A DNA stretch of 64,000 nucleotides, taken from positions 1-64,000 of the forward strand of contig CAJBEZ010000108.1 in the NCBI GenBank assembly GCA_903952205.1, written 5' to 3'. Source of the DNA: an uncultured Desulfomonile sp. (GTDB lineage Bacteria; Desulfobacterota; Desulfomonilia; Desulfomonilales; Desulfomonilaceae). The position numbers and the translations under genes are program-made. Positions 21,858 to 38,436 of the stretch are shown here, piece after piece (position 1 is the stretch's first letter; each line of letters starts with the position of its first letter). Under the pieces are notes generated by a model, which worked only from the letters and a program-made list of their open reading frames with translations, was not told the DNA's origin and ran no database searches.

Positions 21858-24800
21858 TTAAGAATTGCGAGAGTTTTCCTTTGCGAGTAACCAACCGCCG
21901 GTCTGGCTACGGTTTAGTTTTTTAAGCTCTAGCGCAGCGCGGTCGTGACTTATTCTCTCATTAATAAGATCTTTGTAGATTCTTCGGGAAGTACGACGAC
22001 GTTTTATCGCTGCGCTAACATCAAAAAGCGCTTCAAGGGCGTCTACCAACCGCGTCAACAATCCTTTCTTGGCCGACACTCCGAGATGATCTCTTATGCT
22101 GGTCAATGCAGAGTTCATGGCCGATTCTATCATCAAAAGTGACGCATGAACTCTCTCCTTTTGAGCAGCGGGTAATGATTTAACTATTTCTAAAGTTTCC
22201 TTAACCGTGAGTTCGCACAAGAGGCTATAATCCTGGAATGTCGCCAACTCGTTCAAACTTTGCTCAAAGGGCGCCTCTCCCCTTCTGTCAATAAGCTTCC
22301 GGCACGCAGCGTGACAAATTTCCCATGATTGCCACTTGTAAACAAAATCCAGCCCAGTACCCTTAATATTTTGCAGTCCCATGATCCGATTGAGAAGACC
22401 GGGCGGTGTATGAGCGCATATCGTATCTATGATGCGATTCCCAGACGCATGATAGTCTTCGATAATAATAAATTTGTCCATGAACCATTTTGTGGTTATT
22501 TTCTTAAATTTATTGATCAGTTCACCCTTATCGGCTGTCGCCTTTGTTATTTCATTATGAATCTCCCGGAACTCCGACATCAAGTCCTTTTGTTTCTCAA
22601 CATATCTCCAAATGTCGTCAGCATACGTTTTGGTTTCAGAATTACCTATTAGCTCCCTTAACTCCGGGCTATCCAAGGCCACATCTAAGGCAATCTCCAT
22701 ACTTTCAGCGCCGTTTAGCCCTGAGAGAATGGCGTTCAGTCTGATCAAGACATCCCTTTCGCTGGTTGGAATCCGAAGTCGTTTCGCCAGACCAACCAGG
22801 GAAGATTCAGAAATGGACAAATTTTCTGTCACGGATGATACGGACACAACGCTGTTAATGAAGATTTCCCATTCGTCCAAGATAAACTGTTTTAATCCCG
22901 TGAGGTTCGATCCAATCAGAAAATGGTAGTCTGCGCTCAAATCGTTAACTAGTATCGATGCAAACATCCGTGATCTCGACAACCGGTCGGCACGGTTGTT
23001 TACAACGGTACTGATTATGACATCAGGATTTCTTTGGATGTCAATATCGTCAAAGCCCATCCTAACCCAGTTGCTCAAGGTGGCGTACCGCTCATTTGCG
23101 GACATTCCGTTCACAAACTGAAGGCGGCGGCCAGAAACTTTTGCCGTCGGAAAAACCTTTAGAACCCCGATATCCGGCACGACACGGTCCGCCATTTCCT
23201 TCAGGGCAAAGTTCGGGTCGATACCCAGTTCCTGAACTAGGGTGAGGACTAGCGAGATGTTGTTAGGGTGCTCCTCGTAGGGAAACCTCTCGAGGACATC
23301 TCTGGTTAACATTCCAGATTCCTTCCAATCCGCGGGAACAAACCTTGTATGTAGTTTGCTCGCCGCAGATCTCAGAATTGGTTTCATTTCTTTTTCAGAG
23401 GTTAAAAGAACGCTCTTAGTGGGGATAAAGGACTCCATAGCCTGGGGAATATTTATGCCAGCCGGTCCCTGTATATCTTCATGGTCCGGGTATGCGTTTG
23501 TTATTGTGGAATAGTCATCTACGGACCATTGTCTTTGAAGGATTCTCAAAAACGAAGGGTTCAAACCCATACATTCCCACAAAAAGATCTTACTTTTAAG
23601 CTTGTTTCCCAAAAGCATCATGTCATGATGTTCCCAAATTGTAGCCTTGTCGTAGGGCCTAAAAATGAACATCTCTCGAGTCTTGCCGAAAGGATACGCA
23701 TGAAGGAACATGGCTTCGCAACCCGTAGTCTTCGCCATCAGGCCATAGCCCAGAGACTCAAACAAGGCCGTCTTTAATCGCTCGACCCCGGATTTACCTC
23801 TGGTTCCCCAACCTCCTATGCAAAGCGCAAAACTTTTTCTCGCTTTTTTGATTGACCACCTTACATAGAGGAGCCTGCTTACGAAAAATCCGAGTAGAAC
23901 CGCGCTTAAAATTCCCAATTGGTACAGTGAATTTTCATACGCCGAAAAGAAGTAATCTCTAAACCTGGGCCACAAAAGAGAAAGATCTATTCCGAGGAGA
24001 CTCGGAAAAAATCGCAGCACAGCGCCATCATTCAACGGTTCTCTTTGATCCTTTCTGTGGCTGGTGAACCGGCAATCGACGCCTATAGCCGCCAACGCTT
24101 CCACATAAGACCCCGGTTTTGCGCCCCCGGCTTCGTTCCAATTTCGCAGGTGGGCGTAATGAGAAAAACCAAAGGTCAACCTGAAGAAAGCAATAAGTCG
24201 TTTTATCAAAGATTTGGGAGGAGTAACTTCGGTAACTCCTTCCGCCGTATACAATTTCAGATGCCGGGGAGCCAGGGGTCTTTTGCAAAGACTCGCAACG
24301 TGATCCACCAGGGGAAGATATGGACGCCAGCCTGATTCTGACTCCATGTAAAGAGGTTCACCGGGTACCCTTGTCTCTGTGAGTTCACAACATATGTGCG
24401 ATGGAGCCCTGAGACTGGCCCTCGAAGTCCTTCCTGTGGTATGACTGAACCCCTGCCGTTTGTCAGGCATGGGATTGCGTAATTCATGGATAAATCGCCA
24501 CAGTCTAAAACCGAAGACATCCCCCCTTGTTATTCTGAGACCTCGGGAAGATGATGCTACATTAAGATCTAAATCGTCCTGGCTCATCACTGACAGAACT
24601 CTTCCAAGGAGTTCTTCATTCGCCCCCAGAAGTTCGGATCGACGAATAGACACTGATTGTCCCATACTGATATTTTCGATCCGTTTAATAAGAATACCCT
24701 TGAGTGCCCGAGCTTTCGTGTCGGTAGTAACAAACATGACTTCTCGAGCCATCGCTGCACGTCTTCTCACAGACAGATCCGGACAGTTTCTGTGCAGGTC

Positions 24801-26057
24801 CTCGATGGCGTCAAGGACTGAAGAGTATAATGAATCGGATTCAGAATTGGCGCCCTCCTCTGATAGGCGCTCCACTGTCCGGGAGACCGTTTCGAGTCCA
24901 ACGAGTAGAACAAATGAATCTTTTTCTCCTGTGAAATGATCAATGAAGAAATCTGACACCGGCTTTATGCAGTCTGTTAGAGAAGTCAGAAAACCAATTG
25001 CATTTACAGTCCAGCTCCTGACCTCGGGAACCGCATCTTTTTTCGCGAAGGTTGTCAACTTGTCCAGAAGTCTCAGTCTATGATCTTGAACCTTAGAGCT
25101 GTTGAATTTCTGTGCCAATAATGAGACCAACCCCTGTCGAACATAGGGACTGGGATCGTTAGCAGCGATCCCAATTAGGCCCACCGATTCCTCTACCGTA
25201 TCTTCCGTCTCAGCCTCAAGGGAGAGAACCGCCCTGCGGAGAAATATCCCCTCTCCTCCAACAGGCTGTTCAAATATCCGCTTCACGGCGGTTTTGTAAC
25301 CATTAGAATCGATCAGCCGTAAGGTCTTCAGCGCTTCAACCTTGACCCATATATTTTCTGAAGTCTCGAGGGATGACCTGTAAATGAACCTCAGAGATTT
25401 GGGAGCTAGCCCATCTGACTCGGTAAGGGATGACGTGACAGCGACGATCGAATAAAGACATCTGTAGGCGCCAATCCTGACCCTCAAATCACCCTTGTAA
25501 GCCATTAAGAGGCTGAAAGTCTCTTCAAATCCCGGCTTACGCCAAAATGCCCCTCGTAAGGCGCCTTCATTTTCCACGGCCATTGTTGTTGAAACGATAT
25601 GCCCGATTCTCCCCAATACAAAGCAAATCTGGTATTCAAAGTCGCAGATTTGTTTCGCGAGACGTTCCAGAACCGCGTCGTAAGCAAACCATCTTCGAAG
25701 AGCCTTCCTGTCCCTGACCAAATTCCGTCCTGATGACCCAAGTAATTTGGCCAGACTCATAACGTGTTCGGTTTTCTGGTGTTCAGTTGAGGCTCTTGAA
25801 AGCCTGACATCGAATTCAGATCGCAAGGTTTCAAGATAAGCTATTTTTTCCAGTCTTTTTTTGACTTCCCAACCCAGAAAGTCAATAAGGGTCTCCCCTG
25901 CCCATCGATCGTCAACAGTTGACCTCGAGATTTCGCCCGGCAAGTTCCGGGACTCGAAGTCACGGGAGATTTCATCAATGAGGTCGGAATAAAGATCCTT
26001 TTGCCAGTCCCTTAGACCGGAGAGCAAGAGTCCATTTATTGTCCCGGTAATGTTCAT
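21858..26057 (-). CDS. PgsB/CapB-like polyamide synthase with N-terminal helical repeats
   Basis: A 1,399-residue protein. Residues about 100-500 are HEAT-like helical repeats. One transmembrane segment (QLGILSAVLLGFFVSRLLYV) lies near residue 720. A Mur-ligase-type domain follows with the marks of the poly-gamma-glutamate synthase PgsB/CapB: P-loop GGWGTRGKSGVERL near residue 750, KTTGCEA, WECMGLNP, NAYPDHEDIQGP. PgsB uses ATP to join gamma-linked glutamates. Bacillus PgsB has only about 390 residues, so the helical N-terminus and a helical tail of about 300 residues are additions. The ATG ends at 26057, 56 bases after the barrel gene. A PgsC-like protein in the same operon is the expected partner. 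The polymer's monomer is not known. Confidence 0.8.
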   Translation of the reverse strand: MNITGTINGLLLSGLRDWQKDLYSDLIDEISRDFESRNLPGEISRSTVDDRWAGETLIDFLGWEVKKRLEKIAYLETLRSEFDVRLSRASTEHQKTEHVMSLAKLLGSSGRNLVRDRKALRRWFAYDAVLERLAKQICDFEYQICFVLGRIGHIVSTTMAVENEGALRGAFWRKPGFEETFSLLMAYKGDLRVRIGAYRCLYSIVAVTSSLTESDGLAPKSLRFIYRSSLETSENIWVKVEALKTLRLIDSNGYKTAVKRIFEQPVGGEGIFLRRAVLSLEAETEDTVEESVGLIGIAANDPSPYVRQGLVSLLAQKFNSSKVQDHRLRLLDKLTTFAKKDAVPEVRSWTVNAIGFLTSLTDCIKPVSDFFIDHFTGEKDSFVLLVGLETVSRTVERLSEEGANSESDSLYSSVLDAIEDLHRNCPDLSVRRRAAMAREVMFVTTDTKARALKGILIKRIENISMGQSVSIRRSELLGANEELLGRVLSVMSQDDLDLNVASSSRGLRITRGDVFGFRLWRFIHELRNPMPDKRQGFSHTTGRTSRASLRAPSHICCELTETRVPGEPLYMESESGWRPYLPLVDHVASLCKRPLAPRHLKLYTAEGVTEVTPPKSLIKRLIAFFRLTFGFSHYAHLRNWNEAGGAKPGSYVEALAAIGVDCRFTSHRKDQREPLNDGAVLRFFPSLLGIDLSLLWPRFRDYFFSAYENSLYQLGILSAVLLGFFVSRLLYVRWSIKKARKSFALCIGGWGTRGKSGVERLKTALFESLGYGLMAKTTGCEAMFLHAYPFGKTREMFIFRPYDKATIWEHHDMMLLGNKLKSKIFLWECMGLNPSFLRILQRQWSVDDYSTITNAYPDHEDIQGPAGINIPQAMESFIPTKSVLLTSEKEMKPILRSAASKLHTRFVPADWKESGMLTRDVLERFPYEEHPNNISLVLTLVQELGIDPNFALKEMADRVVPDIGVLKVFPTAKVSGRRLQFVNGMSANERYATLSNWVRMGFDDIDIQRNPDVIISTVVNNRADRLSRSRMFASILVNDLSADYHFLIGSNLTGLKQFILDEWEIFINSVVSVSSVTENLSISESSLVGLAKRLRIPTSERDVLIRLNAILSGLNGAESMEIALDVALDSPELRELIGNSETKTYADDIWRYVEKQKDLMSEFREIHNEITKATADKGELINKFKKITTKWFMDKFIIIEDYHASGNRIIDTICAHTPPGLLNRIMGLQNIKGTGLDFVYKWQSWEICHAACRKLIDRRGEAPFEQSLNELATFQDYSLLCELTVKETLEIVKSLPAAQKERVHASLLMIESAMNSALTSIRDHLGVSAKKGLLTRLVDALEALFDVSAAIKRRRTSRRIYKDLINERISHDRAALELKKLNRSQTGGWLLAKENSRNS

Positions 26058-26113
26058 CCGCAACAACCATAAGTTTTTGGATCATAAATTTTCAAAGAAA
26101 CCGTCCGTTCATC

Positions 26114-29100
26114 TCATGAACCGTTGTGACCAAGGGTTATCGGAGTAAAAAAGCTTTCTGGACCGGGGCTTATATGATTATTCCTGATTTGTGGGACCCG
26201 GCGTTTCCTGATATCTACAAAATCCGCCTCACTGGGACGAAAATCCCTAAGCCCCCTACCATCGCCAAAGAAATAAGACAGGGATATGTAGCCTGACACG
26301 TCCATCTTGTCAAAATCAAAATCTGTCTTACAGAGCAATTGTAACCTTCTTTGAGATATCATCCACCTGTCGCAGGCCAGTTCTACGGCAAGGATGTGAC
26401 GATCACTCGACTTGGTTCGATTGGCGCCGGCAAAGTAAAAGGAGTATTTGTAAACTACGTCCATTTGAAACCGGCCAAGCAGTTGTTTCCAGCCTGCATC
26501 GACCTTTACGTTGTCATAGTTGATAGGACTCAGATTTTGATTTGTCTGCGCGGAGATTCTGGAAAACCATATTGTGTCAAGCCATGGCTTATATTCAAAA
26601 TATTCGCCAAATTTTAGACCAGCTTTGTGCTCAGCCTTGTATTTGGTAAATACATCGTCGTCCACCCACCAGGATGGGAACTGAGTATTGGTTTCCATGC
26701 TTAGAACTCTTCCAAAAACCGAAATTGAGGGCAGGTGAAAGAATTTGGGGGTAATTTCACAGACCTGAGTTACGCTGCCTTCTAGAGTTCCGCAGTATTC
26801 TGCGCTACCTCCGCCAAAGAAACCAAAAGTCTCAGCTCCGGGTTTCTGTATATATAGGCTGGTGGCCAGTCCCACATTCCACGGAAAATTCGTGGGATAA
26901 TAGACAGCGTCTCCAAGAAAACCGATGGTCGGGCCACCGGTTTCCCGAACTCGGGATAGAAAAGTCCCCTTGCAATAACCCGGAAGATATTGTTCGAAAT
27001 ATCGATATGTCGCTGCCACCTCGACGAATTTTGCCTCATCAGGTTTCGAACTTGGAGACGCCTGAGGCGAATTGCTCACCTGAATTGGTTCGTCGACATC
27101 CCTGGGTTTACGATAGGTCCCGCTCAGTGACCAGGTTCCATCCTGCTGTTTGCCAAGCCGATATTCATCGTCGAGGACTACCAGGCGGGGTTCCGCCGCT
27201 GATCCTACCGAAAAAACCGGGCCGGGAACCGCCGCAAAATAAAATTCAATTGGACGTGGAATGGTAAGGTCCTGTTCTGCGGGCGCAATTATTTTCCGTT
27301 GAATTCTAAAAAGAGCCTCCTTCTCACCCTTTCCCGGAGTGAGATTCAATTCGTGCCATCCATGTTCGAAGAACCTGTAGGAAACTACCTGATCTCCATC
27401 CCTCAATTCATCTATTCTAACCCAGGATGGACCCTCTATTTCCGCCCTGACCGGTCTTTGATGCGTGGCAACGTAATAAAGCCGTTCATCCGGTTTCGTC
27501 ATTACTAAATCCAGACATCTCCCGTCGGAAGTTTTTTCACAAAAGTTCACTTTCAGGAATTGGTTCGCATATTTTGTTCTTATCCACACAGATACTCTGT
27601 GTCGTCCGGTGGGTACAGCCAGACGTAGCGCACTTGAAGGATTTTGCCCCGAAAGTGTGAATTCATGAGGTTTTTCATCGTCGAGTTGACAGGTCAGTTT
27701 CATGGCCGCTGGTGGAAGAAATCGCAAGTCCATGAGTGAGAGTTTGATCTCAAGATCGGATGGTTTAAGATTTTCCATTACGAGGATGGTTTTGTCTCGA
27801 CCGGCGACAACACGCTCTCCTGGAGCGACCGGTTCAATAAGAGCTTTTCTAACCCTCAAAGAATCGCCTTCGGGTTCCCATCCTGTCAACCTGACAAATT
27901 TAAGGCCTGCTGTGGCCTGAATAAGACTCAAAGACTCCCAGGCGGTTTTATCGGACAGTCTGGGTAGCAGGCTGCGAATTTCGGGGACGGCTGGATGGCC
28001 CTCGCAAAGCCTCTGCGCTCTAGCCTCAGCTTCGGAGAGTCTAGCTGGCTGGGTCTCACCCCAGTATACCAGCAAATCCATTGCATCCATGACACCCTTG
28101 GAATCATTTTCATCCAACTGTCGTAAAGCCGAAAGAATGTCTCCTCTGCCAAGATCAAGCGCTCGGCGGCGCCCGCCTGGATTCGGATCTCTGATTCTAC
28201 CACGTACAAGGCTTCTCATGCCGGCTAGCAATTTCCAGTGAGAGTTGTCCAAGGCTGGAAGTTCGCGAGGCCTCCATGTCGATCGGATCACCATCTTGTC
28301 GCAGATATAAATCGGACGGGACTCATTTGGAAAAGGTAAAATCGTCAAACAGGTCCTTCCCAAACAGGAAATTCGATCGGTAAACCCCGTTGGTTCCGGT
28401 CTCACAGGACCTCTTAGAGCAGCGTCAACTGTGTCCGGTGTGAGCTGAGGCAAAAGCCCCAGGCTCATTTCAGGGCGCTGTGATTCAAGATTTACGATTA
28501 TGGGGATATCTCCACCATGGACCTCTATATCATGAGGACCTGGACCTAGAGTCAAAATCTTCTGTATCAACTGTCCAGTTTGATGTCTGGAGTCACCGAC
28601 TATGGTCAGTCCTTCGCTTGGCGTGTTGTTGTTAATAGGAGCTATGTATTTCTCATCTCCAGTTTTGATTTGCACCCAACCATTAAGGGGCTGAGTGGAT
28701 CGCTTTACGTGCAAGGGCCTGGCCGTTATTCTAACAGCGACAGGGCCGTATATATTGGCTCTCACTGGCCGCGATGAGCCGGCTTTGAAGCCCCGGAAAT
28801 AGAGGTCCCTTGGAATGCTGTAAAGCGTGACGCCCCCACTATAATCGCTAATGGCGTCAGGTTCTTCAGCCCACCTGTGAGGACCCGGATGATTTGCCTG
28901 CCATATCTCCCATTCTGTGACTGCCTTGACCCGATCATTAATTGAGCAGGATTTCAATTGATCCTGGATTGTCAGGCCGGACCTGATGGTGTCGGCGTAT
29001 CTTTTTCCCAATTCACCAGAATTCCCTAATAATTTGAGAGTCGCTACGTAGGCGCCGCCTTCTACACTCTTGAATGCCGACCAATAATTGCGTTCAGCCT

Positions 29101-31729
29101 GATCGCCCAACTGGGGAATGAGGTCACTGTAAACGTGAAACCAGCCAACATATCTACTTGCCCTAAGTAAATCCCTAACGGGTCTTTCGGGCCTTGGCAG
29201 GGCCATGCCAGCCATTAGAGCCATCTCGTAATGGCCTGCCAGGATGAGTGTGGAACAAAGGTCCCGGATTGTCTGAGGCTCCGGACGCATCAGAACTTCC
29301 GTAGCATACAGGGAAAGGAGATTCTGAGGATCATCGGTTTGATCAAAATTCGCCTTATACATCTTCAGAAGTTGGTTGAAAGCTGCTTTAGAGAGTTCAG
29401 CGTCTTTATGTCCGTCGGGCTGAATATAAAGATAGCGGAGAAACATCTCGGCAAGAAACATTTCCCCTAGATTCCGCAGGGACTTGGTCATCATTAGAGC
29501 GGCTTCAGATTTCTTTGATCCAGTAGTCCTGTGGTAAATTTCTCCCCATTCCTCAAGTGATATCAGCCACTGTCCCCCTTTCTCGGCCCTCTGGGCCTTA
29601 CTTGTCAAGTCACTTAACTGGGTGGCGCTCAGTCGATCTTGTCGTCCCCCCGATCCTGGCAAATTCTTGATGGATTCTTTCACTGGCCCCTCAAATGTTG
29701 TCTTATTGGATTTCAAAAGGTATACAAGGGGTAACCAGAAGCTTTTCAAGTCCTTCTTGGCCAAGGCGAAGAGATTGAGGAACCCGTGCCCCAACTCGTT
29801 TTGGTTCGATAACGACACTGTAGGAGAAGTAAGGGCCCTGACAAATTCTCTAAAACAAGCGCCATCGCCACCGAGAAGATTTTCGGCCTCTATGTAGTCC
29901 CTCTCCGACATCCTGAAGGGGTTTGACTCTCTATACTGAAGCGACAGCCTTATTGGACAGGAGCTTGGTCCGTAGGCCCACGCGAAAACCTCTGAAACGT
30001 TTGGCGGCAGATTCAATTCGAAAGTGGCGGTTTCCTTTAGTGGGGCTGGATTGTGGCGTAAACTGAATGGTCCGCCAAGAGTGGTTGCGTCCTGCCCGGG
30101 TCTGTTGATCCGTAATAGCTCCAGTCCGGCTTCGCCTTGAGAAATCTTGTAAGTGGAAATGGGCGCTTCAGATCCTGGAACGAGTGCAAACGCTATTGTG
30201 TCCCCTCCAACCATTTTAATTACCAAATTCTGTACACTGTGACTTTTTTCTACGGCGACCCTGAGTCGAGTCGGAGCGAATCTCTTTGGTATCCAGTAAT
30301 GGAGGGGGCCACCCGGCCGCCCAGATCCTACGGGCTCACCGGGTGAAGTCAAATTTGAGACCGGAAGAGTAACAAAAAAGCCTGACGCCAGTCTGTCCAA
30401 GTAGGAATTCATGTGCCGCGCAGCGACAACTAGGTCAGGTTCATCAAATCGCTTGAGATTGCGATCTACGAACCAGCCGAACTGCTGCCTGTCACTCGAG
30501 ATTTTATTTGAAGGAATAAGACTTCGGAAACCGGTATTGAAACCTTGAAACTCCTGGGCCTTGTTTCTTACCTCAGGGGCGTCGGGCCTCTGGCGACCTG
30601 AAGATTCGAGGATCGATGTTCCTACAAGAGCCCCCTCTCTTCTGCTGTTATCGAGCCTGAGGCGGTCTGCGACCTTTTCCAGCTCAGGGGCTGCGCCTTG
30701 TGGGGTTGCGACGATAACCTCCATGTCTCTGTCGTCCAATCCCCACGACGGGATTCTCGATATTACAGGATTGATGAAGCCTCTGACTTCACCGGCCGTG
30801 ATCTTGGGCTGATTGAGAGTTGGAAAAAGGTAATCCGGATTTGACTGCAAGAGAGTTCTAGCGATAACATCGGCAGTAGGCGTTAGGGTGAGACGATGAC
30901 TTCCACATGGTATTTCAACGAATCCTCGCCTAAGCCGACCTAGGACCTGTGAACATCCCTTGACATATAGCGTTTTGGTGTTTTCCGGGGCGGTTTCCGC
31001 GTCCAATATCGACAGTTCCACTCCATCAAGCCGGCATTGAAATCGATAATTCTGTAACAGCGTGTCCTCTGTAGGACATACGATCCTACTTTCAACCGCC
31101 AGACGGCAAGGACCCTTTACGTCCACATCCACAGGACAATTGGCGGTTAATCGAAAGAATTTCTCGGAGCCGCATTTGTCGCTACGTTTCAGTTTGATCG
31201 GACATCCAGGCAGACACAACTGGCGCCTGTATGGGGCAATTTCGTCAAGGGTGTCTCTCCTTGAAACAAATATCGCCACAGTTAATCCACAGATTGAAGC
31301 CATCGGTAACGATACCCTGCACATCAGAGGATCAGGCCCATTTGGAGCCAGAAGAAGAGATCTGCCGTCAGTGGTAGCCTGTAGACCGAGATACGCTTGC
31401 AATCCAGTTCCCTGAGATGCGGACACTTCAACAGAACCCGGAGGCAGCGCTCCATCAGGGTTCATAATCCGTAATATTTCGTACGCCGGGAGCATAACGT
31501 TTACGCATGAACCGGGCTTGAGCGTGATTGTGCTCATGCGGTGCTTAACACTGTAGGAAGGCGCCATGCCGGACACCCATAATGGGGACTTGTCCACGTT
31601 ATCCCAACGAAGGGGCAATTCGTACTGCTGAAGAAGTCTAAGCTGAGCGTCATCGAGTTCTGACGAACTCGTTCCAGGCATTCCGATGATCAGCAGTGTC
31701 AGGCATACAAATGAAAATGCGCTTTTCAT
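26114..31729 (-). CDS. Giant periplasmic/outer-membrane protein with C-terminal beta-barrel, candidate polymer exporter
   Basis: A 1,871-residue protein with a signal peptide (SAFSFVCLTLLIIGMPGTSS). The N-terminal half holds beta-rich domains, one with about ten cysteines. A related motif recurs at least three times: FFRLTANCPVDVDVKGP, the segment with PVRANIYGPVAVRI, and LYYVATHQRPVRAEIEGP. Residues about 690-960 are TPR-like helices. The last 330 or so residues alternate like a transmembrane barrel (VGLATSLYIQK, VSGYISLSYFFGDG). Helical scaffold plus C-terminal porin recalls the exporters PgaA and BcsC, which carry polysaccharides through the outer membrane, but I see no detailed sequence match. 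The ATG overlaps the upstream stop (ATGA). In this operon it is the best candidate for the export pore. Confidence 0.65.
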   Translation of the reverse strand: MKSAFSFVCLTLLIIGMPGTSSSELDDAQLRLLQQYELPLRWDNVDKSPLWVSGMAPSYSVKHRMSTITLKPGSCVNVMLPAYEILRIMNPDGALPPGSVEVSASQGTGLQAYLGLQATTDGRSLLLAPNGPDPLMCRVSLPMASICGLTVAIFVSRRDTLDEIAPYRRQLCLPGCPIKLKRSDKCGSEKFFRLTANCPVDVDVKGPCRLAVESRIVCPTEDTLLQNYRFQCRLDGVELSILDAETAPENTKTLYVKGCSQVLGRLRRGFVEIPCGSHRLTLTPTADVIARTLLQSNPDYLFPTLNQPKITAGEVRGFINPVISRIPSWGLDDRDMEVIVATPQGAAPELEKVADRLRLDNSRREGALVGTSILESSGRQRPDAPEVRNKAQEFQGFNTGFRSLIPSNKISSDRQQFGWFVDRNLKRFDEPDLVVAARHMNSYLDRLASGFFVTLPVSNLTSPGEPVGSGRPGGPLHYWIPKRFAPTRLRVAVEKSHSVQNLVIKMVGGDTIAFALVPGSEAPISTYKISQGEAGLELLRINRPGQDATTLGGPFSLRHNPAPLKETATFELNLPPNVSEVFAWAYGPSSCPIRLSLQYRESNPFRMSERDYIEAENLLGGDGACFREFVRALTSPTVSLSNQNELGHGFLNLFALAKKDLKSFWLPLVYLLKSNKTTFEGPVKESIKNLPGSGGRQDRLSATQLSDLTSKAQRAEKGGQWLISLEEWGEIYHRTTGSKKSEAALMMTKSLRNLGEMFLAEMFLRYLYIQPDGHKDAELSKAAFNQLLKMYKANFDQTDDPQNLLSLYATEVLMRPEPQTIRDLCSTLILAGHYEMALMAGMALPRPERPVRDLLRASRYVGWFHVYSDLIPQLGDQAERNYWSAFKSVEGGAYVATLKLLGNSGELGKRYADTIRSGLTIQDQLKSCSINDRVKAVTEWEIWQANHPGPHRWAEEPDAISDYSGGVTLYSIPRDLYFRGFKAGSSRPVRANIYGPVAVRITARPLHVKRSTQPLNGWVQIKTGDEKYIAPINNNTPSEGLTIVGDSRHQTGQLIQKILTLGPGPHDIEVHGGDIPIIVNLESQRPEMSLGLLPQLTPDTVDAALRGPVRPEPTGFTDRISCLGRTCLTILPFPNESRPIYICDKMVIRSTWRPRELPALDNSHWKLLAGMRSLVRGRIRDPNPGGRRRALDLGRGDILSALRQLDENDSKGVMDAMDLLVYWGETQPARLSEAEARAQRLCEGHPAVPEIRSLLPRLSDKTAWESLSLIQATAGLKFVRLTGWEPEGDSLRVRKALIEPVAPGERVVAGRDKTILVMENLKPSDLEIKLSLMDLRFLPPAAMKLTCQLDDEKPHEFTLSGQNPSSALRLAVPTGRHRVSVWIRTKYANQFLKVNFCEKTSDGRCLDLVMTKPDERLYYVATHQRPVRAEIEGPSWVRIDELRDGDQVVSYRFFEHGWHELNLTPGKGEKEALFRIQRKIIAPAEQDLTIPRPIEFYFAAVPGPVFSVGSAAEPRLVVLDDEYRLGKQQDGTWSLSGTYRKPRDVDEPIQVSNSPQASPSSKPDEAKFVEVAATYRYFEQYLPGYCKGTFLSRVRETGGPTIGFLGDAVYYPTNFPWNVGLATSLYIQKPGAETFGFFGGGSAEYCGTLEGSVTQVCEITPKFFHLPSISVFGRVLSMETNTQFPSWWVDDDVFTKYKAEHKAGLKFGEYFEYKPWLDTIWFSRISAQTNQNLSPINYDNVKVDAGWKQLLGRFQMDVVYKYSFYFAGANRTKSSDRHILAVELACDRWMISQRRLQLLCKTDFDFDKMDVSGYISLSYFFGDGRGLRDFRPSEADFVDIRKRRVPQIRNNHISPGPESFFTPITLGHNGS

Positions 31730-32631
31730 CGGAGTGTTCCGTCCAGACATTTCATGAAAATTTTGCGCAGATTCTGGTTGACCTTGAACTGCTGACGGAG
31801 TTCATGGCTGATCTCAATGTGAACGAATGTTTTCCTTCCTATATTCCTAAGCAGTTGTCCGCTAATGTTCTCAGTGGCGCCCAGTTCGTTGATGTCAACA
31901 GGATAAACTCTAACTTTTCCAAAGTGGCCATCGGTTAGGCATTTCCGAAGTTCAAGCAACTCCGAGCGAGGTTTGTCGTCCCCTGCGCTTATAATTATAT
32001 CCGCAGATTCCCCCGCCTGCGATCTACGCTTACCGGTCTGAAATCCGTGTATCTGGATTTGATATGCGTCTGGTAGAGTTTCCGCCAAGGCCTTAGTGAA
32101 AGCGGTCAAGTAAGTCCTGGGCAATCTGGCCAAGTCGCAAGTCATGTTTGTCGGTTCGCCTTTTGGATATCTCCTGGCCGTATTCCATGCGGCGGCTGGG
32201 AATTTGCCTTCCAGAAACATGTTGAGACCGATTTTTCCTGTCGCCTCGTCGGTGAATCTGTGAGGCATGATGAGACATCTCTTTTTTTCAGTTATGTCTC
32301 TAAAGAGATAGAAACCTCTTCCCCGTTTTTCATTTTTCTTTTCCATCAGGACAAGAAAGTTGGAATCATCGCTGTGAGCGTGTATCAGGTTGAAACCCAA
32401 GGCTGACCAAGCTGACACAATCTCGGTTCCTGTTTCGCCCCTGAGAGTCCTGGCGAAAAGCTCCTGCGCCTTTTCGAATTCACCTTCCTTAAGTTCAGCG
32501 CAGTCTCCTCCCGCCGACATGTTGTATAGGGACTCAACTTCGGGCCTTTCCGGTATTTTCATATCTGAGCCTAGCGCTATAGTGTTCAGGAACAATGCTG
32601 CCACAAGGCTAAAAAACAGGGTTAACGTCAT
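31726..32631 (-). CDS. Secreted hydrolase-like protein related to the PgsC-tail repeats
   Basis: The 301-residue protein has a signal peptide (TLTLFFSLVAALFLNTIALG). Candidate metal/catalytic residues lie in three blocks: MPHRFTDEATG (H124, D128/E129), IQIHGFQTGKR (H195) and FVHIEISHELR (H271, E273, H276). Their order recalls zinc carboxypeptidase-type folds, including phage poly-gamma-glutamate hydrolases, but I cannot assign a family with certainty. The same blocks occur twice, with the histidines replaced, in the PgsC-like protein of this operon. It overlaps the lipoprotein gene by 23 bases and its stop overlaps the barrel gene's ATG. A role in trimming or releasing the polymer is the simplest inference. 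Confidence 0.55.
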   Translation of the reverse strand: MTLTLFFSLVAALFLNTIALGSDMKIPERPEVESLYNMSAGGDCAELKEGEFEKAQELFARTLRGETGTEIVSAWSALGFNLIHAHSDDSNFLVLMEKKNEKRGRGFYLFRDITEKKRCLIMPHRFTDEATGKIGLNMFLEGKFPAAAWNTARRYPKGEPTNMTCDLARLPRTYLTAFTKALAETLPDAYQIQIHGFQTGKRRSQAGESADIIISAGDDKPRSELLELRKCLTDGHFGKVRVYPVDINELGATENISGQLLRNIGRKTFVHIEISHELRQQFKVNQNLRKIFMKCLDGTLR

Positions 32632-35197
32632 CGAGGATCACCTCTTCACGAAATTCTCTTTGCTCGAAAGTTCCCGGAAGAACGCGGGTCAATTCAAGAT
32701 AATTGGCCAATCCATCCTCAAGCTCCACTCGAATGTGATAGCTACCTGGGGGAATGTCTCCGTGGACTGGGAAGAACATTCTCTGCCCAGCTTCGAGATC
32801 ACCTTCCGGGTCGTTTATTATCGGACATGGACCCTCTGAGGAGGGAATCACGTTAAAGCGTCTGTCCAAAATAGTGAGCCCATCTAATGGGCCTTCTGAT
32901 TCGTTTGGCGGAGCGCACAGACGGACTCTAATTGTGGAGCGCTCTTTCCGGCCATACGGCGCATACAGCGTCAAAGAGAGTATTTCGTCCTCTGCCGAGC
33001 GTTTGAGATATTCGACATCCATTTTCCCATCCGAAAATAGGTTTGCGAAACGCACCTGGTTGTTAACCTCAGAGGACTCAAGGTGATTCATAAAAAAGGA
33101 AATGTCTTTTTCCGTAGAATCTATTGTCAGATGGTGTATGCCCGAATACATCGGAGGCAATCGGAACATCCCTCTTCGCCCCATTAGTTTCGCATCCAAG
33201 AACGGCGAACCATCAGCGGAAACATTAAATCTGAACGGCTCCAGATCATCTTTCCTCAGGAAAATGATCGTAGGCGTAACAACATTCAGCCCAACGTCCG
33301 AGCGCAAATTGATCTCGACTTCCCTTCCTACCGGAATCTTGGAAAATCCTGAAACCAGGGATTGCTCCCTTTTATAGGGCAAAGTTTTATCCTGAGGTGC
33401 AAGGAGGTACTGACCACTCCACGCCCCTGTCGGTCGAAATTGCTCCCACCAAAATCGGCCGGCAAGGATATCCGGATCATCCTCTGGAGGCCGCAACTGT
33501 ATTTTTGTCAAAACTGAACGCTGCTCTTTAATCAGGCTTTCATAATTCAATGGGCGGACCAGAAACCAGTCGGGTTCTCTGGCATTCAAAAGGACACTTT
33601 CCTCAAAATAGTCTTGCGGAACATTTGTCTCTTTCGTTAGATCAGCCGGTCGTGTGTATGCGTTTGCGACAAGAGGATTTTCGGACGACAACTTTATGTA
33701 AGGGCTATCAGACGGCAATCTGAAATAGAACGATTGTGGATCAGACACGACGGCCTGGTAATCCCCTATCAAACCTAAATCGTAGGACGAGGGAATCGAG
33801 GGGAAATCGAGTTTCCCTTCTCTTACAGTTTCCCCTTTCAAGCCTAGCAGAGCGTATTTTACCGTGTGATTCATTGCGAGCGCCGCTTCAAATAGAGACC
33901 TGAAATCTATTCTCAGGGGTGTTTTGGCCCCATCTGAATGGGCAACTTTGAAGACAACGCTCTTGTCATTTTCTATCCTGAAAGTCCTGACGTAAAGCTG
34001 CTCAGGAATGGCTGGTTGAGCGCCTTTTGGGGAAACCCACGAGGGTTTCACCACGAGAGGGGTTTCAGACAGGAATTCAAGGATACCTCCCTTGAAAGAC
34101 CCCTCCCATGTCATAGGTACGCCATCCCAGGGAATGCTCACACTGCTTCGTTCAGTTATATCCAGGCCATACCAATTGATTTTTATAGTTGCGTCTTTAC
34201 TAACAACAGACGGACCGACATGAGAGAATTCGAACTTTACATTCCGGCCATCTTCCGGTACGGGTAGCGTTCCTCTCAGGCTTGCGTTAACTAAAATACC
34301 CTCAGGTATGATTGGATCTTCAACCGGAGCCCCCTCGATATCCCTGATTACATAAATTTTCCGGGCTAAGAAGTCATGTCCTTCTATCCCTTCCGGACTG
34401 ATAGGAGCCCAGAGTTGACGAAGGAGGTTCTGTCTTTCAATTTCTGTCAAAAGTTCCGATGGATAAACGTTTCCCTGAGACAAAATGTCTTTCTGTCTCT
34501 TGGTGATACGCATCCATGAAAAATCCAGCCTTCGTTCGGATGTAGGTTCCTGATTGTAAGTCCTGAGAAGAACGCTGGATATTTCAGGATCTGAAGCAGC
34601 AAGACGAAACCGCAGTATTACCGGTTTCCCCGTAAGGGATAGTTCCTTGGTGTTTATGACTAATACCCGCCCATCCGCCGGCATATCAGAGGAGTCCAGA
34701 TAAAATGCCGCTGTATAGGGTTGCTCCATGTCCTCGGTTGCAAAACGGGTTAACCCTGTCTCGTAGTTATACTGACCGGACTTAACAATCCTGCTTGTGT
34801 CCTTGTCCACGATCTGCCAGTCAATTGCGTATCGCCATTTGGCGCCTGGATCGTTTCCGCTTCCGACGACAAGATTAGCGTTGGTGACTATCTTTATGGT
34901 GTCCGCAGCCACCGGAACCAGGAATGTGATCCACTTGTCCATATTCAGTTCGTATCCCCAACTGATCTGTGAAAAGGGAACCAGGGACTGTAATGGCGAA
35001 GAAAGACCACTCGAGCCGCGAACAAAGTTGAAAAGGAAATTCCCGAGGGTCTTCGACGAGTTAACGATTTTGGATCCGCCTTGCTCTTTTGAATTTGGGC
35101 CCGGCCCCACCTTTAGGTCGCAGCCCGTAAGCAAATGAACAAAAATGGCCATAGCAGCCAATAGCAAAGATCTTGAAAGTGATTTTTTCATTTTCAT
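32609..35197 (-). CDS. Large beta-rich lipoprotein, probably inner-membrane anchored
   Basis: From the ATG ending at 35197 the product has 862 residues. The signal SLLLAAMAIFVHLLTGCD ends in lipobox LLTGC with Cys26 followed by Asp. In E. coli, Asp at +2 keeps a lipoprotein in the inner membrane. The rest looks beta-rich (many short alternating stretches such as GKPVILRFRLAA and REVEINLRSDVGLN) and no known domain is recognised. The ATG overlaps the PgsC-like stop (ATGA), with AAGG six bases upstream; a longer frame would run 43 codons into that gene. Position and predicted anchoring suggest a periplasmic adaptor between the synthase and the exporter. Confidence 0.7.
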   Translation of the reverse strand: MKMKKSLSRSLLLAAMAIFVHLLTGCDLKVGPGPNSKEQGGSKIVNSSKTLGNFLFNFVRGSSGLSSPLQSLVPFSQISWGYELNMDKWITFLVPVAADTIKIVTNANLVVGSGNDPGAKWRYAIDWQIVDKDTSRIVKSGQYNYETGLTRFATEDMEQPYTAAFYLDSSDMPADGRVLVINTKELSLTGKPVILRFRLAASDPEISSVLLRTYNQEPTSERRLDFSWMRITKRQKDILSQGNVYPSELLTEIERQNLLRQLWAPISPEGIEGHDFLARKIYVIRDIEGAPVEDPIIPEGILVNASLRGTLPVPEDGRNVKFEFSHVGPSVVSKDATIKINWYGLDITERSSVSIPWDGVPMTWEGSFKGGILEFLSETPLVVKPSWVSPKGAQPAIPEQLYVRTFRIENDKSVVFKVAHSDGAKTPLRIDFRSLFEAALAMNHTVKYALLGLKGETVREGKLDFPSIPSSYDLGLIGDYQAVVSDPQSFYFRLPSDSPYIKLSSENPLVANAYTRPADLTKETNVPQDYFEESVLLNAREPDWFLVRPLNYESLIKEQRSVLTKIQLRPPEDDPDILAGRFWWEQFRPTGAWSGQYLLAPQDKTLPYKREQSLVSGFSKIPVGREVEINLRSDVGLNVVTPTIIFLRKDDLEPFRFNVSADGSPFLDAKLMGRRGMFRLPPMYSGIHHLTIDSTEKDISFFMNHLESSEVNNQVRFANLFSDGKMDVEYLKRSAEDEILSLTLYAPYGRKERSTIRVRLCAPPNESEGPLDGLTILDRRFNVIPSSEGPCPIINDPEGDLEAGQRMFFPVHGDIPPGSYHIRVELEDGLANYLELTRVLPGTFEQREFREEVILDDVNPVF

Positions 35198-38100
35198 TGC
35201 AGCCTTAACCACGCACAACGGGAATTGACAAACTCTTCGACGATTTCTCTGTTTAGCGTTTTTCGATTGGCGTCCAACCCAGTTGATGAATCGAGAGGCA
35301 GGAGATTTGCTACGGCTATAAGGCAACCATCTCTTGCGCTTACCAGCATGAAGCTTTGCTTTGAACTGACGTCTAAAAGCCTTTCGAACCTATATTTCCC
35401 AAATTCTTTGAGAAGCCTGTTCAAGCTGACAACATCTCCCGTTTCCATGTAATCAGCCATTGTGGTGATCAATTCGGAGGGAAGTGGGCTTTCAGTTAAA
35501 CACTTTTTTTCATTGTGAATCGTTTCAAACAGATCGGCCTGGATCATCGGAATGTCCAATGCCTCAAACTGTTGCTCCTGGACTCTATTCTCCGATTGTT
35601 GCTGGTAATATTTTCGTGTCGTGGGCGCTATCCAGACCACTACAAATTCTTTGTTTCTCGATTGATCCAGGTATAATGATTGAGTTATTCCGCCGACCTC
35701 ATACCCCATCACGCTCGGTGATCCATCTGTAAAGCCTACCGCAGAGCGATCTCTCTCCAGGATGTTCATGAGCCGAACCATCAAAGGATCCATCGCTGCA
35801 GTTGTGGTGGCCCCGGACTTGAGAGACAGAATTTTGTCCAGATCGGTTGGCGGCCGGTCCGGTCGATATCCGAACGCCCGACATTGAATCACAAGCATAT
35901 TCTGATGGTGCGATTCGCGAACAATTGCCTGATTTACAAGATTGAAAAGATTGACCTTGTTTTCGATACGGATGATGTCGGAACTACCGTCTACGTTTGC
36001 CAGAGGATGTGATCCGCCAATTAGCAGGGCCTTCGCCTGCAATTGCTCAAAGAGACTTACGCCAAATTCGAAAACATTTAATTCTGTTATCGGTCTTGGA
36101 ACCTGAATCACGTATCCCTCTGATTTCCCCATTCGGATTACGTATGTGCCCCAATACTTCCTTCTCGAAAGGTCTTTGCGTTCTGAGAGGATGACGTAAT
36201 CTTGACCGCTGTTCTTATCCCTGTATCTTATGAATTCATATCCGACAGAAGCGGCGAGATATGAGAGAGCGTTAAGGTTGTTAATGCCCAGGTTAGTCCA
36301 GCCATGTTCGTCATAGAATTCCGAAGATAATTCCAGGAACGGGGCCAGAACCTCTCTGTCAAAATATAGCAAGTCGTCCAAAGTGGCTTTTACGTATAGG
36401 TTGGATCCGCGTTCGGGGAATTCTTCTTTTTGGGCCAATATCCAGTCCTGCAAATAACCTACGATGCTCTGATTCCGATTTTCCTGCTGAACCTCGAAGT
36501 CTTTCTGATCTGGGCCCGCCATGATCCTAAGTAGACTGGTCCGGTCTAGCAGCAATTCCGCAAAACCCGTCGGGACAATATCCCTAAGGATATTCAGAAA
36601 AGGAGGGCTCCCCCATTCCACCTGGAAAGGCCCTATGATGTTTTTGAGGTTAATCAAATTTAACCCCTCAGGAGTCTCTTTTCTTACCCACAGTGTGGAT
36701 TGCGCAATTCGCGGGGGTCTATCTTTCGATTCGCCGACTTCGTTTTTGGAGATTCCCTTGACTTCTTCAGCGAATCCTCTTACTTGAAGAATCCCCCTTG
36801 ATCCCATTACCTTGTGGAAAATCCCAAACATAGTGGACTGATTTGCAAGCGCGTCTGAAGACCCATCGGGAGAGGTAGTTCTGGCGCTACCTGCAACGGC
36901 CATGGCCCTCGCGCCCAAGCCAGTGAAGAGCGTGACACCTGCGTCGCAAATTCCCCATTCTTCAACTGGCGCAGGAATTTCAATCAACAGGTCGGATTTA
37001 GCCGATGGGTTTATAACGTAGATCCCCCATCCGTGTCGACGCTCTCTCTCATTGATCATGAGATAGCCCTCCGGTAGGAGATTGATGTTGAAATTTATCA
37101 GGTAGAGGAGTTTCGCAGCGTTGTTCAATGCCTCGGTTTCGCCTGTCTTTAGGTATTCCGAAAGGTAATCAAGAGCCTGAACGAAGATGTCACTTTCGTT
37201 AGGCATGGGGGATTTGTATGAATTGGGTAATAGGGAGCCAGTTATTCCAGACTTCTGTTTCCGTATTATTTCAAGGAGATTCTGCCCCACTGGCTTTATC
37301 AGGTCCCCTGGAATCTCTGGACTTGACAGTGCCCTCAGGTTAAAGAAATTGGGGACCTGTTTAAGCCCGAAGCCTATGACCGTAGCGACCAATACCGCCA
37401 CCAAAGAGGTCTGAAGTGTAGCAAGCGTCACTCTCGCCATTATGTCTTTGTCGTACATGCGGATGGCTAGAAGAGTTGTAAGTAGATAACCGAAGCCGAA
37501 ATAGTCTGTGACTCTATGTTCCGGGAAATATGCCACTATGATATGGGCCAGGGTAAGGTGATAGATAAATCCAACGTTAAAGAAAAACAGGATTTTCCTT
37601 CCACCTTCTATATTTGCGTTTTTGAAGATCGGAATTCTAAGTAACAGGGACGACAGGCCAAGAATCAGGAACGATTCAATAAAACTCCACAGGATCTTTT
37701 CCGGCTGATACCACTGCAGAGCGAGCAGGGATGGTACTAGAATCCCTCCAAACTCCCATCCGTAGTCCAAATTCACGCGTGAGGCTACGAATGCCGTGAT
37801 CAGAAGTATGATGTAAGATTTTGGACTCGCCAGCATGGACTTGGCGACATCCATGTAGATGTAATTCAGGTTACCTATGTTGTAGTTGGTAAACTCCATC
37901 AGACCATAACGGACAAAGAGGTAGGTAACAATTATGGTGATGGAGCTTTGAAAAAGGCCTTTTCTCAATCCGGGTTTCCAGAATTGGTTCGCTAACAGAG
38001 CTACTACTACAAGTCCAAAACTGTGGAGATTGTTCCTGTAATCGAAGCCAGGGATCCAGGTGTCAGAGAGATACTCCCCAACCGGCGGTAGAATGAAAGT

Positions 38101-38436
38101 CTCGAGTATGATGCGTACGACCACGCTAACGCAAAAAATGGCAAAAAATCTGTCCCTACCGAAAAGTCCGTTACCTATTCCGAACTTGGGGAAATATTCC
38201 GACCACATCAAAACAATAATGTATGTGAGTATCGCCTCAACAAATACGATAGCGGCCGCCCAAGGCTTTAGAATAAGCAGCGGCACGAGGTAGCCCGGGA
38301 CAACCAACCCACTGAGGACCCATCCGAACCTGAGATTCATGAAGCAACTGACACATACCCCCACCCAGACACTTGTTGTTACAGCGCCAGCAGCAGTTCC
38401 GAGCGGAAATAATGGGAACCACGACACATGTTCCAT
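35194..38436 (-). CDS. PgsC/CapC-like membrane protein: tandem PgsC domains plus a repeated pseudo-hydrolase tail
   Basis: A 1,080-residue protein, first in the operon. Residues about 15-190 match PgsC/CapC (SGLVVPGYL, LTYIIVLM, GRDRFFAI, HSFGLVVVALLANQ). Residues about 215-360 look like a second PgsC unit (GGILVPSLLALQW, EGGRKILFFFNVGF). PgsC is the small membrane partner of PgsB and normally has only about 150 residues. The soluble rest has two long repeats (about 415-640 and 680-945) and a truncated third (about 985-1050). The repeats share GWGIYVI/YWGTYVIR and IPAP...GVTLF / VPRP...GVSLF with the hydrolase-like protein of the operon, but its histidines are Ala489/Arg553 and Arg781/Arg853. 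I infer an inactive binding or scaffold domain. Confidence 0.8.
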   Translation of the reverse strand: MEHVSWFPLFPLGTAAGAVTTSVWVGVCVSCFMNLRFGWVLSGLVVPGYLVPLLILKPWAAAIVFVEAILTYIIVLMWSEYFPKFGIGNGLFGRDRFFAIFCVSVVVRIILETFILPPVGEYLSDTWIPGFDYRNNLHSFGLVVVALLANQFWKPGLRKGLFQSSITIIVTYLFVRYGLMEFTNYNIGNLNYIYMDVAKSMLASPKSYIILLITAFVASRVNLDYGWEFGGILVPSLLALQWYQPEKILWSFIESFLILGLSSLLLRIPIFKNANIEGGRKILFFFNVGFIYHLTLAHIIVAYFPEHRVTDYFGFGYLLTTLLAIRMYDKDIMARVTLATLQTSLVAVLVATVIGFGLKQVPNFFNLRALSSPEIPGDLIKPVGQNLLEIIRKQKSGITGSLLPNSYKSPMPNESDIFVQALDYLSEYLKTGETEALNNAAKLLYLINFNINLLPEGYLMINERERRHGWGIYVINPSAKSDLLIEIPAPVEEWGICDAGVTLFTGLGARAMAVAGSARTTSPDGSSDALANQSTMFGIFHKVMGSRGILQVRGFAEEVKGISKNEVGESKDRPPRIAQSTLWVRKETPEGLNLINLKNIIGPFQVEWGSPPFLNILRDIVPTGFAELLLDRTSLLRIMAGPDQKDFEVQQENRNQSIVGYLQDWILAQKEEFPERGSNLYVKATLDDLLYFDREVLAPFLELSSEFYDEHGWTNLGINNLNALSYLAASVGYEFIRYRDKNSGQDYVILSERKDLSRRKYWGTYVIRMGKSEGYVIQVPRPITELNVFEFGVSLFEQLQAKALLIGGSHPLANVDGSSDIIRIENKVNLFNLVNQAIVRESHHQNMLVIQCRAFGYRPDRPPTDLDKILSLKSGATTTAAMDPLMVRLMNILERDRSAVGFTDGSPSVMGYEVGGITQSLYLDQSRNKEFVVVWIAPTTRKYYQQQSENRVQEQQFEALDIPMIQADLFETIHNEKKCLTESPLPSELITTMADYMETGDVVSLNRLLKEFGKYRFERLLDVSSKQSFMLVSARDGCLIAVANLLPLDSSTGLDANRKTLNREIVEEFVNSRCAWLRLQ

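Follow-up and report, generated by a model that had tools for sequence, protein, structure and literature searches.

Inactive copies of a predicted gamma-glutamyl hydrolase domain fused to a PgsC-like synthase subunit in a Gram-negative operon

The closest described counterparts of the locus analyzed here are the PgsBCA/CapBCA systems of Bacillus, in which, as in this case, a PgsB-like ligase and a CapC-like membrane subunit are encoded in one operon. To our knowledge, how poly-gamma-glutamate exits the cell is unclear even in Bacillus. Operons for exopolysaccharide synthesis and export include periplasmic degrading enzymes, such as AlgL, BcsZ, and PelA, and thus also combine a hydrolase with a synthesis and export apparatus, but these systems differ from the present one in both the polymer and the enzyme class, and we know of none in which dead copies of the hydrolase are fused to a membrane subunit of the synthase. 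Poly-gamma-glutamate hydrolases of the PghP/PghL (YndL) type (PF05908) are phage-encoded. In PghL, zinc is bound by His41, Glu46, and His102, and the active site also includes Glu165 and Arg171, the latter anchoring a glutamate carboxylate of the polymer; the Arg171Ser substitution abolishes cleavage (PMC6506827).

Here, we report a computational analysis of a locus within a 64,000-nucleotide stretch of DNA from an uncultured Desulfomonile sp. (hereafter, the window), which encodes relatives of both the synthase and the hydrolase. Its features are the following.

38436 to 21858, minus strand: five tightly packed, partly overlapping genes.
35194..38436, minus strand: PgsC-like protein (hereafter, PgsC), 1080 aa, with two CapC membrane units in tandem and a C-terminal region.
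37363..38376, minus strand: membrane part of PgsC, residues about 21-358, with the two CapC units (from PF14102 matches, hydropathy, and charge).
36508..37224, minus strand: repeat A, a dead hydrolase copy, residues about 405-643 of PgsC (from hhalign alignment to HYD and residue counts).
35587..36402, minus strand: repeat B, a dead copy, residues about 679-950 of PgsC (from hhalign, residue counts, and carboxypeptidase-like matches of the model).
35197..35484, minus strand: probable truncated third repeat, the domain start only, residues about 985-1080 of PgsC (from weak hhalign similarity and secondary structure order).
32609..35326, minus strand: lipoprotein with the lipobox LTGC (from the sequence; relatives adjoin HYD in 26 + 5 loci).
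31726..32631, minus strand: HYD, a secreted 301-aa protein, predicted to be a zinc-dependent gamma-glutamyl (poly-gamma-glutamate-type) hydrolase.
26114..31750, minus strand: 1878-aa exported protein with a probable C-terminal outer-membrane barrel (from a weak MtrB/PioB match; a conserved neighbor).
21858..26066, minus strand: PgsB-like ligase of 1402 aa, with a HEAT-like N-terminal part ahead of the core (residues 723-1062).

The assignment of PgsC rests on two stretches that match PF14102 (37960-38364 and 37432-37797; E 1.4e-42), with a domain score of 145.3 bits against a Pfam cut-off of 27, whereas the score against the poly-gamma-glutamate PgsC equivalog TIGR04011, 58.8 bits, lies below its threshold of 96.45. 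The match of the ligase to TIGR04012 (E 2.1e-55) likewise falls short of the curated cut-off, and the core of the ligase is preceded by approximately 700 extra residues (1-720) with HEAT-like repeats (HEAT_2, E 6e-5). Compared with the Bacillus systems, the locus has a duplicated CapC whose fusion partner is a stretch of about 700 residues made up of pseudo-hydrolase repeats; no PgsA was recognized, and there are three additional components, namely, a lipoprotein, a secreted hydrolase, and an outer-membrane protein. The lipoprotein probably starts at an ATG near 35200, so that its gene would overlap the end of pgsC, and HYD carries a signal peptide. The outer-membrane protein, in which the MtrB/PioB match is confined to residues 1699-1772 (E 0.027), is a candidate export partner. 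Directly upstream of pgsC, the gene at 38736-41504 encodes a CHASE2 sensor with a weak match to histidine kinase-type ATPases, a possible regulator of the operon. Searches of Pfam, NCBIfam, and PHROGs with HYD, the C-terminal region of PgsC, and stand-alone relatives of HYD assigned none of these to a family, and a sequence search of the PDB returned no match.

Relatives were collected by a scan of one-per-species genomes anchored on a PgsB motif, with a seed alignment of three rows, two of which served only as a search device and carry no claim; of the 330 related places detected, the best 80 were kept, and tblastn subsequently confirmed each locus. These best 80 of the 330 places come from Gammaproteobacteria, Betaproteobacteria, Desulfobacterota, Zetaproteobacteria, Planctomycetota, Nitrospirae, Verrucomicrobia, Myxococcota, and others. 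Of 50 of these genomes, 47 encode a PgsC relative, mostly full length (1036-1172 aa) and mostly 36-48% identical, and 45 of these 47 also encode HYD. The order lipoprotein-HYD-outer-membrane protein-PgsB is preserved in 26 loci and in five more where the outer-membrane protein gene is in two frames. Searches of genomes from the window's own phylum were almost empty, nearly all of them lacking the locus; no relatives were found by a genome scan with exact HYD peptides, and no HYD was detected in the plasmids searched. Because the gene order is conserved across several phyla but is nearly absent from the phylum of the window, the five-gene operon (PgsC-lipoprotein-HYD-outer-membrane protein-PgsB) has probably spread by horizontal transfer. 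In one locus from Planctomycetota (L164:1760-6001), the lipoprotein and HYD form a single 1414-aa frame, which supports a joint function of the two proteins; similar apparent fusions in L131 and L163 proved to be overlapping open frames in different reading frames, leaving L164 as the only real case. Another genome from the family of the window carries a fragment of HYD (L003:1-327, 63% identical) at the end of a contig, with no outer-membrane protein gene behind it.

The structural model of HYD (AF2; pLDDT 94.4) points to a zinc hydrolase. The top Foldseek match is YndL/PghL with bound poly-gamma-glutamate (5onj, E 2.9e-5), followed by an aspartoacylase-family protein, N-formylglutamate amidohydrolase-like proteins, and carboxypeptidases. 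Upon VIA-align superposition, the highest Z-scores were obtained for the N-formylglutamate amidohydrolase (PF05013)/zinc carboxypeptidase fold (2odf, Z 14.5, 3.1 A over 183 residues; 2q7s, Z 13.1), and these were followed by 5onj (Z 12.5, 3.5 A over 168 residues), the phage PM1 hydrolase 21dc (Z 11.8), and PghP (3a9l, Z 11.6). At the sequence level, none of 35 HYD proteins matches Pfam PF05908 or PF05013, and the hhalign comparison with PF05013 is similarly unproductive (P 0.047). A PF05908 profile built from 19 proteins of other genomes, in contrast, aligns with HYD at a modest score of 30.3 (controls, at most 18.9), and in this alignment H124, D128, T131, H195-G, N255, E273, and R279 of HYD fall on H, E, T, H-G, N, E, and R, positions that are invariant in both families. 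The motif order is thus common to the two, H-x3-D-x2-T, HG, N, E-x5-R in HYD against H-x4-E-x2-T, HG, N, E-x5-R in PF05908. Placed in register with the active-site residues of PghL, HYD retains the complete set in 36 of 36 proteins, with H124, D128, and H195 as predicted zinc ligands, E273 as the putative distal glutamate, and R279 as the likely substrate-anchoring arginine. The earlier note, made from the DNA of the window alone, had proposed the two histidines as metal ligands; both are invariant, and D128, E273, and R279 join the set. HYD differs from the PF05908 enzymes in its H-x3-D spacing, in additional N-terminal helices and a hairpin, in being secreted and encoded together with a synthase, and apparently in the specificity loop, where the His77-x-Thr79-Ser80 residues of PghL have no clear counterpart visible in a poorly aligned region. 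HYD possesses invariant or nearly invariant residues of its own, namely, N150, R154, and D166. On balance, the motif and the model make HYD quite probably an active hydrolase of gamma-glutamyl chains.

The earlier note had also discerned, by eye, a common order of sequence blocks in this 301-residue protein and the C-terminal region of PgsC. Comparison of the single sequences from the window yields no signal (shuffle Z of 0.2 and -0.9; BLASTP E 0.11), so that a family was needed to prove the reading. When profiles built from relatives were compared using hhalign (PgsC residues 400-655 for repeat A and 672-965 for repeat B; HYD residues 40-301), repeat A aligned with HYD over 225 columns (score 103.9, P 7e-15) and repeat B over 234 columns (score 101.7, P 3e-14), and the two repeats aligned with each other at a score of 181.7 (P 2.4e-26). 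By comparison, 17 unrelated control profiles from the same operon scored at most 27.6, and reversed profiles, at most 17.2. The top control for all three profiles, the start of the outer-membrane protein, was considered as an extra copy of the domain but rejected, the match being short and motif-less (P 0.0035). Cross HMM searches among HYD and the repeats gave hits down to 7e-14. In a blind search of the genome from which the window comes, the HYD profile retrieves HYD (3.6e-98), then repeat A of PgsC (1.6e-4), and then noise; in blind six-frame searches of 50 other genomes, apart from HYD and two stand-alone relatives, all matches at E <= 0.01 (30/30) fall in PgsC. The two stand-alone secreted proteins (L165:2132-3184 and L166:111-1244), whose genomes also encode the operon, contain the complete motif set (PHxxxD, LHGF, and HIEQSYxxR or HLEQSYxxR) and give scores with HYD as well as with the repeats, thereby bridging the two. 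Furthermore, E97, G106, P123, D166, and Q193 (HYD numbering) are largely kept in the repeats of 44 PgsC proteins. Chance, or a merely general resemblance among alpha/beta proteins, could appeal to the silent single-sequence comparison but is refuted by the profile comparison across the entire domain and by the blind genome searches, and is further at odds with the shared residues.

Repeat A of the window is, on average, 34% identical to repeat A of other species and repeat B is 40% identical to its counterparts, compared to 29% between the two repeats of the window; neither shows alignable similarity to HYD, and by the profile scores, too, the repeats resemble each other more than they resemble HYD. 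Given that each repeat is closer to its counterparts in other species than to the other repeat or to HYD, the split is ancient. The intact and dead copies do reside in one locus, as the earlier note had it, but this is not a local oddity, with full-length PgsC relatives conserved in dozens of species. The span of 35194-36900 assigned there to the copies begins within repeat A (residue 513); on the minus strand, the repeats extend from about 37224 to 35194.

At the catalytic positions, the repeats have diverged in a consistent manner. In the window, the positions of H124, D128, H195, and E273 are occupied by A489, E493, R553, and L629 in repeat A and by R781, E785, R853, and W935 in repeat B, and the equivalences of the two histidines are identical to those originally drawn by eye. 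Across 44 PgsC proteins, the H124 position is mostly alanine in repeat A (29/44), with 36 arginines and 6 histidines in repeat B; the H195 position is arginine in 39/44 and 42/44, respectively; and the E273 position is hydrophobic in repeat A and tryptophan in 40/44 copies of repeat B. The D128 position remains acidic (E/D in 38/44 and 43/44), and the position of the substrate-anchoring R279 is arginine in 37/44 copies of repeat B (R941). Other conserved polar residues near the former site are D528/D820 and Q551. With both histidines and the distal glutamate gone, catalysis by the known route is not expected in the repeats, and the strong conservation of the replacements across phyla indicates that these domains are under selection. 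Homology of HYD with both repeats, together with the loss of catalysis in the latter, is nearly certain from these comparisons, and the repeats are best described as old, selected pseudo-enzyme domains rather than decaying local copies. Fold prediction is in agreement as far as it goes: in a model of PgsC residues 385-1080 from three sequences, the order of helices and strands closely tracks that of HYD in both repeats, at the low confidence of pLDDT 53, and repeat B, the best modeled, shows weak zinc carboxypeptidase-like matches that call for caution (best Z 8.2).

The pattern of lysine and arginine versus aspartate and glutamate in the loops of PgsC, computed with family-averaged hydropathy, suggests that the C-terminal region faces the periplasm, where HYD, with its signal peptide, and the lipoprotein are also located. 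We infer that the locus encodes a Gram-negative version of a Pgs/Cap synthase of a polyamide, probably poly-gamma-glutamate, in which PgsB would synthesize the chain, to be passed or supported by the membrane part of PgsC with its two CapC units. The periplasmic repeats would then bind, but not cut, the nascent polymer as it exits and pass it on to the lipoprotein and the outer-membrane protein, and HYD, encoded two genes downstream, would trim, release, or clear periplasmic polymer, in a role resembling that of the periplasmic hydrolases of exopolysaccharide export systems. We assign this explanation as a whole (a synthase, chain-holding dead repeats, and a trimming hydrolase) a probability of roughly 0.6. 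For the predicted polymer binding by the repeats, taken by itself, the odds appear even; and the broader proposal, that the hydrolase of the polymer itself supplied dead copies that the membrane synthase subunit recruited as a periplasmic chain-holding module in a widespread, apparently undescribed Gram-negative polyamide system, is more tentative, at somewhat under even odds.

The alternatives concern what the repeats do and what the polymer is. The repeats could instead be a protein-protein scaffold on which the lipoprotein, the outer-membrane protein, or HYD docks, or could pair with HYD and regulate it, in either case without contacting the polymer. Pseudo-enzymes frequently regulate their active relatives, the operon is tightly packed with one lipoprotein-HYD fusion, and a conserved hydrophobic residue, W935, fills the former active site of repeat B. 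Charge is also relevant: the repeats of the window carry net charges of -6 and -6 (family means +1.9 for A and -3.6 for B, compared to +6.2 for HYD), and, not being net basic, do not favor binding of a polyanion. A pure scaffold, however, would have no need for R941, which corresponds to the anchoring Arg171 of PghL, or for the acidic residue kept at the third ligand position. Because this arginine is retained in repeat B and the repeats descend from a hydrolase, we favor chain holding and consider the scaffold a serious but rather doubtful alternative. Retained enzymatic activity of the repeats, through an altered site that needs no metal, is very improbable: although the polar residues at the old site (E493/E785, R553/R853, D528/D820, and Q551) are strongly conserved, both histidines and the distal glutamate are missing in nearly all members, and the arginine, tryptophan, or hydrophobic replacements correspond to no known catalytic set.

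As for the polymer, the relationship to PgsB and PgsC, below the equivalog level, and the hydrolase fold are the grounds for inferring poly-gamma-glutamate. Since both synthase proteins fall short of the curated equivalog cut-offs, the chain may differ, and HYD and the repeats would then act on or bind another amide-linked polymer; the apparent lack of the PghL His/Thr/Ser specificity residues in HYD and its distinct N150, R154, and D166 point in the same direction. Nevertheless, the nearest folds (YndL, PghP, and N-formylglutamate amidohydrolase) cut or bind glutamyl compounds and the E-x5-R anchor motif is retained, so we regard another polymer as unlikely.

The locus combines components of known kinds, a Pgs/Cap synthase and the zinc gamma-glutamyl hydrolase fold. 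A literature search that covered few subscription papers and no bioRxiv preprints found no description of the fusion of CapC with dead hydrolase copies, of the domain family, which is uncatalogued, or of the five-gene operon of Gram-negative bacteria; the same search returned no Gram-negative export route for poly-gamma-glutamate with outer-membrane parts. The analysis provides a defined parts list for the locus, a likely function for a domain that lacks any Pfam model, and a testable connection of the hydrolase with the synthase; should the dead repeats indeed hold the chain, PgsC would be the point of handover from synthesis to export.

The count of two and a half copies given in the earlier note holds for the two full repeats and is less firm for the remainder. 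From residue 985 on, PgsC aligns with the N-terminal slice of repeat B at a score of 22.3 (P 8e-4; controls, at most 15.1) and with repeat A at P 0.004-0.017, with nothing detected against HYD; the low-confidence model contains a helix-helix-strand-strand-strand succession, as at the start of the domain. Residues 985-1080 thus probably represent a truncated third repeat, a weakly supported assignment.

Several PgsC relatives depart from the common form. One (L106:1321-4719) contains a single in-frame TGA, reflecting either an assembly error or a broken gene. In Gammaproteobacteria bin397 (L128:1911-4262), PgsC is shorter (784 aa), repeat B being reduced to a remnant, and HYD is not detectable in the genome, suggesting that the repeats and the enzyme may have been lost together. 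A divergent PgsC (L131:1474-4566) has retained PHGFHD as the metal-site motif of repeat B and appears to represent an intermediate step toward loss of the site.
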